Part shown: piece after piece, positions 35,246 to 39,466 of the stretch
How positions within the stretch are numbered: the first letter of the stretch is position 1
Layout: each line of letters opens with the position of its first letter
DNA from: Candidatus Nanohaloarchaea archaeon
GTDB lineage: Archaea; Nanohalarchaeota; Nanosalinia; Nanosalinales; Nanosalinaceae
Reading direction: 5' to 3'
Length of the DNA stretch: 64,000 nucleotides
NCBI GenBank assembly: GCA_013343275.1
Contig: CP046106.1
Coordinates: forward strand, 620,001-684,000
The notes under the pieces: generated by a model
Told to the model about the DNA's origin: nothing
What the model saw: the letters and a program-made list of their open reading frames with translations, nothing else
Database searches by the model: none
Position numbers and translations under genes: made by a program

Positions 35246-35740
35246 ATGAAGCCTGATGCCTTGAGAGGTACCTTCGCTCGGCTCTGGGAAGGCCTGTTTC
35301 TATCGGTTGCCGACAATATCTCGGTTTTCTCAATCAGCGATGCAAGATTTCCGCCGTACTTCTTCCGGTTGATGTTGGTCGCGGCCGTACCAATATTTTT
35401 CCTGGCAGGTTACCGTCCTACAAACCCTATTCTACAGCTGCTGGCACTGGTTTCAATACTAGGCGTTGTCATTTCTATTCCTATAGCAACCTATCTCAGC
35501 CTGAAGAAAAAGGAATACACGCTTCAAGGATCGGAGGTAAGAGAGGTAGAGACATTTCTTGGTAGAAATGAGTCATCAGTAAACCTAAGCGAGGTAGGAG
35601 ACGCCTATATAAGCGAAGGAGTTATAGGCCGCATTTTAGGTGTCGGAAAGGTTTGTCTGACTACTGATGAAGGCATTTTCCAGATAGATTACGTTAAAGA
35701 TCCTGAGCAGGTAAAGGCTGATATCAAAAGAGCGCTATAG
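35246..35740 (+). CDS. Membrane protein with bacterial PH-like domain
   Basis: 164 aa. Two predicted transmembrane helices (about residues 42-55 and 62-82, PYFFRLMLVAAVPIFFLAGY and LQLLALVSILGVVISIPIATY) are followed by a cytoplasmic bPH2-like domain: YTLQGSEVREVETFLGR, VGDAYISEGVIGRILGVGKVCLTT, GIFQIDYVKDPEQV. This is the YdbT/bPH2 arrangement, where the domain follows a membrane hairpin. Function unknown. It lies between ftsZ and secE. Confidence 0.72.
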   Translation: MKPDALRGTFARLWEGLFLSVADNISVFSISDARFPPYFFRLMLVAAVPIFFLAGYRPTNPILQLLALVSILGVVISIPIATYLSLKKKEYTLQGSEVREVETFLGRNESSVNLSEVGDAYISEGVIGRILGVGKVCLTTDEGIFQIDYVKDPEQVKADIKRAL

Positions 35741-35792
35741 ATCACGCTACATTTGTCTTTTAAATCTTGTCTTCTATCTCTGTTTTAGTATC

Positions 35793-35861
35793 GCCCGTAT
35801 GGACCAGCTTTGCTGGGAGGGAGGCCAAGTCTTTTTGGACTAGTTCTCTCTAAATACGGGT
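35793..35861 (+). ncRNA. Structured RNA element just upstream of secE
   Basis: Three helices fold inside 69 nt. P1: GCCCGTAT (35793-35800) with ATACGGGT (35854-35861), 8 bp. P2: CCAGC-ttt-GCTGG (35804-35816). P3: GAGGGAG (35817-35823) with TTCTCTC (35844-35850), capped by an inner hairpin (CCAA/TTGG or AGTC/GACT). A TATA-like ttttaaat at about 35758 would start transcription near its 5' end. The 3' end is 2 nt before the AGGTG binding site of secE. Either a 5' UTR regulatory structure or a small RNA gene; it lacks a T arm, so it is not a normal tRNA. Confidence 0.5.
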
Positions 35862-35878
35862 ATAGGTGTAATTTAGCC

Positions 35879-36079
35879 ATGGAACTAAACCCCGGAGAAT
35901 GGAAGCAGCATGCAGTAGATAAGCTTAGAGAGTACCGTAGAGTGCTCAAGATATCTGAGAAACCTGATAGAGAAGAGTTCGAGATGAGCGCCAAGGTTAC
36001 CGGCGCCGGAATGATCATCATCGGGCTGATAGGTTTCGTGTTCTACCTGCTTTCAAACCTGATTCCGAACTACCTGTGA
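35879..36079 (+). CDS. secE: Preprotein translocase subunit SecE/Sec61-gamma
   Basis: Start at ATG 35879, 10 nt after an AGGTG binding site; in-frame codons further upstream overlap the RNA structure. 66 aa: amphipathic N-terminal helix (ELNPGEWKQHAVDKLREYRRVLKIS), the conserved KPDREEF that precedes the membrane helix, and one TM helix (GAGMIIIGLIGFVFYLLSNLI). It clamps SecY in the translocon. The Spt5 gene follows at 6 nt, the classical archaeal arrangement. Confidence 0.93.
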   Translation: MELNPGEWKQHAVDKLREYRRVLKISEKPDREEFEMSAKVTGAGMIIIGLIGFVFYLLSNLIPNYL

Positions 36080-36085
36080 TCTACA

Positions 36086-36523
36086 ATGATACTTACCGCA
36101 AGAACGACAAGAGGCCGTGAGAAGACCGCAATAAACTCTCTGGAAAGCAAAGTTAAAGGCAAAGATATAGATGTAAGAGCGGTTTTCCATCCAGAAGACC
36201 TCCAGGGATATATCTTCATCGAAGGAAACGAGGCCGATATCAGGACACTCGCGAACGATACCCGAAATATCAACGGGATCATCGATGAAGAAGTAGAGGT
36301 TGACGAGATCGAGAAATACCTGAGCGAAGAACAGGAAGAGATCAAGATCGAGGAAGGAGACGTCGTAGAAGTAATCGGCGGGCCTTTCAAAGGCGAAGAA
36401 GCTAAAATCAACAGGGTTGACGAAACCAACAGAGAAGTCACCATCGAACTTATCGACGCAGCAGTACCGATCCCTACAACAGTCGACGCAGACATGGTGC
36501 GGAAGAAAGCTCAGCAAGACTAA
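36086..36523 (+). CDS. spt5: Transcription elongation factor Spt5 (NusG)
   Basis: 145 aa, usual archaeal length. NGN domain (ILTARTTRGREKTAINSL ... HPEDLQGYIFIEGN) followed by a KOW domain (EEGDVVEVIGGPFKGEEAKINRVDETNREVTIELIDA). It binds the RNA polymerase clamp with Spt4 and promotes processivity and coupling to ribosomes. In the conserved order secE-spt5-rpl11-rpl1-rplP0. Confidence 0.95.
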   Translation: MILTARTTRGREKTAINSLESKVKGKDIDVRAVFHPEDLQGYIFIEGNEADIRTLANDTRNINGIIDEEVEVDEIEKYLSEEQEEIKIEEGDVVEVIGGPFKGEEAKINRVDETNREVTIELIDAAVPIPTTVDADMVRKKAQQD

Positions 36524-36562: not shown

Positions 36563-37060
36563 ATGGGAGACAAAAAAACGATTTCGACACTAGTCGAGGG
36601 TGGATCTGCATCAGCAGGCCCTCCGCTAGGACCAGAACTTGGGCCTCTACCAACTGACGTTGGAGAGGTTGTAAAATCAATTAACGAAGAAACAGCAGAC
36701 TTCCAGGGAATGGAGGTTCCTGTTGACGTCATCATCGACGAAGAAACAGGCGACTTCGAGATAGAAGTCGGAAAGCCACCAGCAGCAGTCCTGATCAAGG
36801 ATGAACTGGGTATCGAGTCCGGGTCCGGTGAGCCTAACAAGAACAAGGTTGCCGACATGGACTTCGAGACAGCTTGCAAAGTTGCAAGAATGAAGGCCTC
36901 CGACCTGCTTGCAATGGATCTACGCGGAGCTGTAAAGGAGATTATCGGAACAGCTCACTCAATGGGAGTTACCATTGACGGTAAAGACGCGTACGACGTT
37001 GCACAGGAAATCGACGAAGGAAAATACGACGACAAACTGGAAGCAGAGGAAGGAATTTAG
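36563..37060 (+). CDS. rpl11: Ribosomal protein L11
   Basis: 165 aa. N-terminal domain ISTLVEGGSASAGPPLGPELGPL with the Pro-rich factor-binding helix region, and the RNA-binding C-terminal half ending GTAHSMGVTIDGKDAYDVAQEIDEG. Part of the GTPase-associated stalk base. Its stop TAG runs into the GAGGTGA binding site for rpl1, 12 nt before that start. Confidence 0.96.
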   Translation: MGDKKTISTLVEGGSASAGPPLGPELGPLPTDVGEVVKSINEETADFQGMEVPVDVIIDEETGDFEIEVGKPPAAVLIKDELGIESGSGEPNKNKVADMDFETACKVARMKASDLLAMDLRGAVKEIIGTAHSMGVTIDGKDAYDVAQEIDEGKYDDKLEAEEGI

Positions 37061-37072
37061 AGGTGAACAAGA

Positions 37073-37699
37073 ATGAACTTTGAAGACGCAGTTAACGAAG
37101 CCGTTGAACAGGCAGAGGAAAGAGGCTTTACAGAAAGTATCGATCTAATAATTAACTTTACAGGCCTTGATCTTTCAGATCCTGACAACAGATTCAACGA
37201 GGACTTCAAGCTTCCTTTCCAGGCTGACGAAGATGTAAAAGTTGCAGTCATCGGAGATACTCTTGCGAAGAATGCAGAAAATGCCGATCTGGAGATTACA
37301 GAGGACGAGCTTGAGGAAGAATACTTTGACAACCCTAAGAACGCAAAAGATCTTGCAGACGAGTACTCGTTCCTGATTGCTGAGGCGCCACTGATGCCTA
37401 AGATTGGTTCTCAGCTGGGACAGGTGTTCGGACCGCGCAATATGATGCCGGATCCAATGCCTCCAGGAAGCGATCCTACAGACGAGATCGAGGACTTGAG
37501 GAACACAGTTACTCTCAGACTTCGTGAAGATCCTTTGATGCAGATCAAGATTGGTAACGAGGACAGAGATCTGGAAGAGGCCGCAAGGAACGCATCCGCA
37601 GTCTACGATTTCGTGGAGAGCCAGCTTCCTCAGGGCCAGAACAACATCAAATCCGTACTGATAAAGACCACTATGGGTCCTACAGTGGAGGTGAATTAA
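37073..37699 (+). CDS. rpl1: Ribosomal protein L1
   Basis: 208 aa. Typical archaeal L1: NEAVEQAEERGFTESIDLIINFTGLDL at the N-terminus, EAPLMPKIGSQLGQVFGPRNMMPDPMP in domain II, and the C-terminal NNIKSVLIKTTMGPTVEVN. It forms the L1 stalk. The start has a strong GAGGTGA site. In several archaea L1 represses its own operon by binding mRNA; I did not find an obvious mimic site here. Confidence 0.96.
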   Translation: MNFEDAVNEAVEQAEERGFTESIDLIINFTGLDLSDPDNRFNEDFKLPFQADEDVKVAVIGDTLAKNAENADLEITEDELEEEYFDNPKNAKDLADEYSFLIAEAPLMPKIGSQLGQVFGPRNMMPDPMPPGSDPTDEIEDLRNTVTLRLREDPLMQIKIGNEDRDLEEAARNASAVYDFVESQLPQGQNNIKSVLIKTTMGPTVEVN

Positions 37700-37700
37700 G

Positions 37701-38726
37701 ATGGTGCAGCCAAAGCCGAAGAAACTCTCACGAGAAGAGAAAGAACAGAAGGTTGAGTACTTCAAGGAAGAGATCGAATCGAATCCAGTAATCGGGATCC
37801 TGGACATGCACAACCTTCCGGCGAAGCAGCTCCAGCAGATCAAGAAAGAGATGAAGGAGTTCGCGAAGGTTCGAATGTCTCGAAAGACCTTGATGGAGAT
37901 CGCCATCGAGAAAGCAGATAAAGAGGATATCGAACAGCTGGAAGACAACGATGCAATCCAGCCAGCATTCATCTTCTCAGAGAAAGATCCTTTCCAGCTC
38001 TACTCACTGATCAAACAGAACAAGACCAGTGCAGCAGCTCAGGGAGGAGAAACCGCACCGAACGATATCGAAGTCCCTGACGGAGACACAGGAATCGGGC
38101 CAGGACCAATGCTTGGAAAACTCCAGCAGAGAGGCCTACAGGTGCAGGTCCAGGAAGGTTCCATCCACGTACAGGAACCAGGCGTCATCATCGAGAAAGG
38201 AGAGGAAATCACTGCAGACGATGCAGAAATCCTCAACCAGCTCGGAATCGAACCACTGGAAATCGGACTCGACCTGGACGTAGCATACAGCGAAGGAGAA
38301 CTGTTCACAGCTGACGAACTAGACATCGACACAGAACAGTACAGAACAGATGTCAAATCCGCAGCAAGCGGAGCATTCAACCTCGCAGTCAACGCAGGAA
38401 TCGTCAACGAGACAACCTCAGAGACACTCGTCCAGCAGGCAGTCCGCAAAGCCAAGAACCTGGCAACAAGCGAAGGCCTACCAGTCGAAGAAACAATCGA
38501 AGAAGCACTGGCCTACGCCAAATCCAACGCAGACGGCCTCGACTCCCAGGTAGACCTCGAATCAGTCGACCTAGAAGAAGGAGATGAAGAATCTTCCGAG
38601 GAGCAATCTTCCGAAGAGGAGGACACAGAAGAAGAGACAGAGACTGAAGAGGAAGACACCGAATCCGAAGAGGGATCGGAAGAGTCAGAAGAATCTGAAG
38701 AAGATTCGGACAAGGAAGAGGAATAA
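37701..38726 (+). CDS. rplP0: Ribosomal stalk protein P0 (L10)
   Basis: 341 aa; ATG one base after the L1 stop, with GGAGGTGA in the end of rpl1. L10 RNA-binding domain (EIESNPVIGILDMHNLPAKQLQQIKKEM ... RKTLMEIAIEK), the archaeal inserted domain (GPMLGKLQQRGLQVQVQEG), helices that anchor P1 dimers (about residues 215-280), then a long Glu/Ser tail. The tail ends in EEDSDKEEE without the usual archaeal C-terminal factor-binding motif of the G-L-G-x-(L/M)-F type, which P1 retains. This is unusual. Confidence 0.93.
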   Translation: MVQPKPKKLSREEKEQKVEYFKEEIESNPVIGILDMHNLPAKQLQQIKKEMKEFAKVRMSRKTLMEIAIEKADKEDIEQLEDNDAIQPAFIFSEKDPFQLYSLIKQNKTSAAAQGGETAPNDIEVPDGDTGIGPGPMLGKLQQRGLQVQVQEGSIHVQEPGVIIEKGEEITADDAEILNQLGIEPLEIGLDLDVAYSEGELFTADELDIDTEQYRTDVKSAASGAFNLAVNAGIVNETTSETLVQQAVRKAKNLATSEGLPVEETIEEALAYAKSNADGLDSQVDLESVDLEEGDEESSEEQSSEEEDTEEETETEEEDTESEEGSEESEESEEDSDKEEE

Positions 38727-38761: not shown

Positions 38762-39466
38762 TTAACCTACTAAATTTCTGACTTTACTTGATTCTTCAGC
38801 AATCAATTCCTGAATTTTTTCCTTATCTCCACGGGCCAGCGCCAGATCAAAGGTCTTGCTGCGTGAGTAAAGTTCTGCATCGAACTCTTCAGCAGGAATT
38901 TCTCTATCGGAGGCCTTTACTTTTTCATCGGAAATCTCCCCTTCTTCATCTACAAGAGCAGAAAATTCTCTATCGAACTCAAGGCTTGAGAGTACTCTAT
39001 GCGAGTACTTCGAGTATCGGACTTCGTAGCGGCCTTCACGGTTGTAGAAGCTCTGTTCTACACCTATTTTTTCCAGCAGATCGATGAATCTCGAGGCCAG
39101 AGATTTCTCATCTGTAATATAGACCGGTGTGCCTTTTCGATTAACTGTTACCGAGGCCTCTACCCGAGTCAGAAGCTCTTCATCTATTTCGACCGGCAGA
39201 TCTATTTCCCAGACCTTTCCCCGGCCTTTACCTTTCACAGCGGAAATTTCCGGAGGGTTCTGTCCCATCAACCTTCGAATGAAGCTTATCGGCATGAATG
39301 AGTTTTTGGATCGCCAGTTGTACATTTTCGAGCTGGAGAAGTCGAATGCCTCCGAAAGCTGTTTGACTCCACCGAATTCGTCTACCCTGTGCCAGAGATC
39401 TTCGCGGCCTTTCTCCGTCAGCTTCACTCGGGTCTGATCTGGCAGATCCTCGAACTTCAATCTCAT
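38762..39466 (-). CDS. HTH protein with LAGLIDADG-like region
   Basis: 234 aa. N-terminal helix-turn-helix-like segment (FGGVKQLSEAFDFSSSKMYNWRS, about residues 31-53, followed by SFIRRLMG), then a middle domain with VEASVTVNRKGTPVYITDEKSLASRFIDLLEKIGV and YEVRYSKYSHRVLSSL. That pattern (short strand, SLA helix, lLekiGv, Y-x-V-x-x-S) is typical of LAGLIDADG endonuclease folds, but no canonical LAGLIDADG acidic motif is seen, so it may be a DNA-binding regulator that reused the fold. It sits on the opposite strand between rplP0 and rpl12, which are normally adjacent. Confidence 0.55.
   Translation of the reverse strand: MRLKFEDLPDQTRVKLTEKGREDLWHRVDEFGGVKQLSEAFDFSSSKMYNWRSKNSFMPISFIRRLMGQNPPEISAVKGKGRGKVWEIDLPVEIDEELLTRVEASVTVNRKGTPVYITDEKSLASRFIDLLEKIGVEQSFYNREGRYEVRYSKYSHRVLSSLEFDREFSALVDEEGEISDEKVKASDREIPAEEFDAELYSRSKTFDLALARGDKEKIQELIAEESSKVRNLVG

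Follow-up and report, generated by a model that had tools for sequence, protein, structure and literature searches.

A conserved leader of the nanohaloarchaeal secE-spt5-rpl11-rpl1-rpl10 operon is most likely a uL1 operator that mimics 23S rRNA

A structured leader at the secE operon

Directly upstream of secE in a nanohaloarchaeal genome, the RNA of positions 35793 to 35861 is predicted to fold into three helices that end next to the Shine-Dalgarno (SD) sequence. Positions refer to the window, the whole 64-kb stretch of DNA analyzed, which spans 620001 to 684000 of a 915,886-base genome in one contig. This raises the question of what the structure does at the head of this operon and which ligand it may recognize. 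Judged from its sequence, the folded stretch is a conserved mRNA leader that copies the L1-bound part of 23S rRNA.

Pfam searches of the window gave the gene series ftsZ, a bPH_2 protein, secE, spt5, L11, L1, L10, an opposite-strand ORF, and L12. The proposed controlled operon lies on the forward strand and starts with secE (35879 to 36079; PF00584), followed by spt5 (36086 to 36523; Spt5-NGN and KOW domains), rpl11 (uL11; 36563 to 37060), rpl1 (uL1, the proposed ligand; 37073 to 37699; PF00687), and rpl10 (uL10; 37701 to 38726), which ends the codirectional run. Archaeal L1 homologues with solved structures exist. The order secE-spt5-L11-L1-L10 is retained in 25/25 relatives, with rpl1 as the fourth gene in all 25. 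At the downstream border, an opposite-strand ORF without a Pfam match (38762 to 39466, reverse strand) separates rpl10 from rpl12, so that rpl12 is probably transcribed separately from rpl10 there. Within the family, many relatives carry this ORF as well, and in several other families rpl12 lies directly 3' of rpl10. At the upstream border, the bPH_2-domain membrane protein (35246 to 35740) separates ftsZ from the leader, and in the family containing Nanoanaerosalina the end of ftsZ directly adjoins it.

The element was originally described as a three-helix fold located after a TATA-like box and 2 nt before AGGTG of secE, and the sequence bears out both the fold and the position. The box TTTTAAA (35758 to 35764, forward strand, like all leader features below) begins 36 nt upstream of CCCG, and the SD sequence AGGTG (35864 to 35868) starts 2 nt past the element. 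Folding of 35793 to 35861 yielded a minimum free energy of -30.7 kcal/mol, compared to a mean of -19.7 kcal/mol for shuffled sequences (z = -3.79; 0/200 dinucleotide shuffles equal), and exactly reproduced the 8-bp P1, the 5-bp P2, and the 7-bp P3a with its inner hairpin. P1 joins GCCCGUAU (35793 to 35800) to AUACGGGU (35854 to 35861). P2 is the hairpin CCAGC UUU GCUGG (35804 to 35816). P3a pairs GAGGGA (35817 to 35822) with UCUCUC (35845 to 35850) and encloses the variable apical hairpin P3b (AGUC/GACU; 35828 to 35841), a helix similar to which is visible by eye in nearly every relative. The suggested likeness to a tRNA proved unproductive, as ARAGORN detected no tRNA in the element and none of the Rfam 15 families matched it at the gathering threshold or with an E value below 1.

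Conservation in nanohaloarchaea

The secE loci of relatives were collected, and their upstream regions were oriented and read, giving 26 readable loci (including G019) from five families. All 26 share one layout. A TATA box lies 30 to 38 nt 5' of CYCG, which leads into a short loop whose last base is an invariant A; P2 and GAGRG come next, and a further hairpin and UUCUC (or a sequence close to it) precede the SD sequence and the start codon. From the uniform TATA spacing, transcription is expected to begin at the element or slightly upstream of it. Each nanohaloarchaeal genome whose secE locus could be read has a single copy of the element, solely before secE. Genomes of one genus (g11) and one family (f4) were missed by the search models, and the motif is readable by eye in three such leaders (L012, L020, and L027). 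The leader L012, from genome G011, carries a hairpin of about 20 nt (UGGUGU..ACACCA) inserted in the P2 loop, as expected if this loop tolerates insertions.

A MAFFT alignment of all leaders shifted P2 by 2 nt between families and was replaced by a structure-guided alignment made by hand and checked against the DNA. On a tree of the SecE, Spt5, and L11 proteins, this hand alignment showed 11 double compensatory changes and 1 breaking change in P2, with two P2 pairs at an E value of about 0.01 in a tree-based null, and 5 double compensatory changes and 6 breaking changes in P3a. The covariation proposed for testing in relatives' secE upstream regions is thus present in both helices, at a conserved position. 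In alignment A6, 98.4% of the paired cells can pair and the covariation score is 0.55 versus 0.31 in shuffles, the paired percentage being biased toward the structure that the alignment was built to fit. Partners slid by 1 to 3 columns paired in 48 to 64% of cells. For P1, the fold prediction was complemented by a test of how well the 5' strand matches the 3' part of the leader as a pairing partner, which gave a Fisher p of 5e-10 against shuffled tails and of 0.04 against swapped tails, the latter being weak because the SD sequence is common to all tails. In roughly half of the relatives' loci, P1 takes in the SD sequence, whereas in this genome it stops 2 nt short of it; likewise, in roughly half of the genomes the SD sequence is hidden by the three-way junction.

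A competing hairpin and its occurrence in other archaea

The tree-based null also revealed an unexpected covarying pair, in which the second base of CYC changes with the central base of GRG (E = 0.009; double changes on two independent occasions). This pair implies a hairpin CYC-loop-P2-GA-GRG that is mutually exclusive with P1, whose 5' strand overlaps CYC, and with P3a, whose 5' strand contains the GA and GRG. Here the hairpin reads CCC-GUAUGGA-[P2]-GA-GGG (35794 to 35821), and its C-stem pairs 35794-35796 with 35819-35821, alternating between CCC:GGG and CUC:GAG among relatives. The functional core is probably this competing 5' hairpin, outside the three-way-junction fold.

A search with a structure-based model, as originally proposed, recovered the same hairpin in distant archaea. 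Model R2, comprising P2 and P3a and trained on secE leaders only, was run on 345 genomes, and of its best six matches outside the lineage, 3 coincide with the SD sequence of rpl1 (G093, G113, and G195). The R2 matches in G325, G229, and G060 fall in or at unrelated ORFs and were attributed to chance, as was a match inside a peroxiredoxin-like ORF in G057. Model R3, the 30-nt hairpin with 21 training rows (two of them rpl1-type), was run on 394 genomes and gave 36 matches outside the lineage, in 35 of the genomes. Twenty-one of these matches are located directly upstream of rpl1, with rpl10 following. Another eight, in seven genomes, precede secE-operon genes; for G279 and G296 this assignment rests on spt5 and L11 near the match, the small secE itself not being detected, and G279 contributes two identical matches, one at a contig end. 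The remaining seven lie elsewhere. Outside the lineage, the C-stem also shows C-G to U-A changes.

The two types of leader differ in their remaining parts. In rpl1-type leaders, the GGAGGG in the hairpin is placed so as to serve as the SD sequence of rpl1 itself, so that bound uL1 would cover it directly. The UUCU(C) strand, the competitor for GRG, is found in 7/7 secE-type leaders outside the lineage, whereas it occurs in 0/21 rpl1-type leaders. Together with the SD sequence lying further downstream, this makes a switch likely in secE-type leaders.

Mimicry of the L1 stalk and proposed control by uL1

To locate an rRNA counterpart, position matrices (PSSMs) of both hairpin strands were scanned over the 23S and 16S rRNA of the same genome. 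For the P2b-GAGRG strand, the L1 stalk (23S position 2189, GGUAGGAGGC) ranks first of 4405 positions. When both strands were scanned together, the L1-stalk pair 2189/2244 came first of 548 complementary pairs with 18.1 bits, nearly equal to the runner-up, a 16S strand pair with 17.6 bits. The strand order is reversed, as the GA strand comes first in 23S rRNA and second in the leader. In this genome's 23S rRNA (L050, about 2239 to 2251), the internal loop of the L1 stalk has AUGGGACA on its 3' strand, before CUACC, unlike the GUGAAAUA of haloarchaea. It is established that uL1 binds helices H76-H78 and that, in bacteria as in archaea, it controls its own synthesis through mimicry (PMC10931766).

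These results identify the element as most likely a uL1 operator acting by rRNA mimicry, and uL1 as the likely protein bound by the leader. The first 28 nt would imitate the L1-stalk site, with P2 as the counterpart of helix 76, GA on one strand, and an asymmetric loop on the other. Because the leader mimics L1-bound rRNA, L1 probably controls the whole secE-spt5-L11-L1-L10 operon in nanohaloarchaea. From the conservation, the helices, the position, the recurrence before rpl1, the rRNA mimicry, and the mutual exclusivity of the two folds, we infer with good confidence that uL1 binds the first 28 nt of the secE-spt5-rpl11-rpl1-rpl10 leader and represses the operon, the remainder acting as a probable switch that may relay the bound state to the secE SD sequence. 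Without uL1, UCUCUC would take GRG to form P3a, and the CGGGU/SD region would take CYC to form P1, giving the three-way junction. When uL1 is in excess over new 23S rRNA, it would bind the hairpin and expression of the whole operon would fall. Transcription yields the operator hairpin first, which could allow uL1 to bind it while the competing strands are still to be made.

Net repression is expected because known uL1 sites work by repression. When the operator hairpin was forced by constrained folding, at a cost of about 9 kcal/mol relative to the free fold, the secE SD sequence became slightly more open (0.47 versus 0.37 unpaired; p = 0.014). Simple sequestration of the SD sequence by bound L1 is therefore unsupported in secE-type leaders. 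The same opening would fit a leader in which uL1 activates the operon, or in which P1 hides the SD sequence and uL1 opens it, as would the pairing of P1 with the SD sequence in about half the relatives. We nevertheless regard either as unlikely, since it would be unusual for a ribosomal protein to act by positive feedback and since binding to the same hairpin in rpl1-type leaders, where it contains the SD sequence, should repress.

Mimicry of 23S helix 42 by a uL10 (L10-L12) operator was a serious candidate. The arrangement CYCG-UU-GAGR / UUCUC-CGRG resembles ACCCGUUGAG / GUUCUCAGACAGCGGG, leader nucleotides 1 to 9 (35793 to 35801) match helix 42 (23S position 1236) best among 23S and 16S rRNA, rpl10 belongs to the operon, and bacterial L10 leaders exist (PMC4538822). 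However, helix 42 has a conserved AGACAG strand that the leader does not keep, the UUCUC strand is unremarkable in the rRNA scan, and the hairpin recurs before rpl1. The Rfam L10_leader model (RF00557) did not match the element either, its sole match lying elsewhere in the genome with an E value of 5. The nine-base match is probably a coincidence, and a uL10 operator, overtaken by the rpl1 matches and the L1-stalk scan, now appears very improbable.

A small-molecule riboswitch, or a kink-turn bound by L7Ae, is a still fainter prospect. A multi-helix junction with conserved unpaired bases would suit either, and archaeal L7Ae regulates mRNAs via kink-turns (PMC5539422, PMC6298567). A kink-turn, however, needs G then A directly before P2, and the base preceding the invariant A is A in 15 loci, C in 5, G in 3, and U in 3; as for a riboswitch, the downstream genes are ribosomal-protein operons with no shared metabolic gene. 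An independent small RNA derived from the secE transcript, also raised originally and in keeping with the compact fold and its own promoter-like box, is equally hard to credit, as the element begins where the mRNA should start, continues into the SD sequence of secE with the P1 3' strand beside or within it, and has no separate copy elsewhere in the genome. The original suggestion that a bound protein regulates the secE-spt5-ribosomal operon, by contrast, gains support from the conserved position and operon, the covariation, the SD sequence in or beside P1, and the hairpin before rpl1.

Relation to known ribosomal protein leaders

Archaea have few known cis-regulatory RNAs (PMC7247131), and the proposed uL1 operator would join this small group. 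It resembles the candidate archaeal r-leaders described by Eckert and Weinberg in 2020 (L4, eL15, and S15; PMC7247131) in being a covarying leader of a ribosomal-protein operon. Table 1 of that paper lists no candidate for L1, L10, L11, or secE, and its text makes no mention of secE, Nanohaloarchaea, or DPANN. No reported nanohaloarchaeal secE leader, or cis-regulatory RNA in these lineages, was found in the open-access literature. Like Rfam L10_leader RF00557 and the B. subtilis L10(L12)4 leader (PMC4538822), the element heads an operon for ribosomal stalk proteins and mimics rRNA, but it differs from them in lacking a covariance-model match and a kink-turn.

We lean toward the broader view that this is an undescribed class of archaeal uL1 operators, strand-permuted relative to rRNA and present in many small-genome archaea. 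Of its two forms, one would be a minimal hairpin placed on the SD sequence of rpl1, and the other an elaborated switch, relocated to the first gene, that would extend uL1 control to SecE and Spt5. If so, ribosome assembly would be linked with protein export and transcription elongation through SecE and Spt5, and a one-site-per-genome uL1 operator would exist in about 19 archaeal families beyond nanohaloarchaea. The same aptamer would be used in one of two places, on rpl1 or, together with additional competing strands, at the operon's head, offering a ready comparison of an operator turning into a switch.

The closest known counterparts are the autoregulatory uL1 sites in bacterial rplK-rplA and in the archaeal L1 mRNA of Methanococcus, which share the irregular stem-loop, the internal loop, the mimicry of the L1 stalk, and the location in the operon encoding L1 (PMC10931766). 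Unlike these sites, the nanohaloarchaeal one precedes secE and carries the extra competing helices P1 and P3. In addition, its loop closes the helix-76 side, so that its strands follow the opposite order to those of 23S rRNA, in contrast to the Methanococcus L1 mRNA site. Autoregulation by uL1 is thus already known, whereas the RNA form, the reversed strand order, the distribution, and the placement before secE appear to be new.
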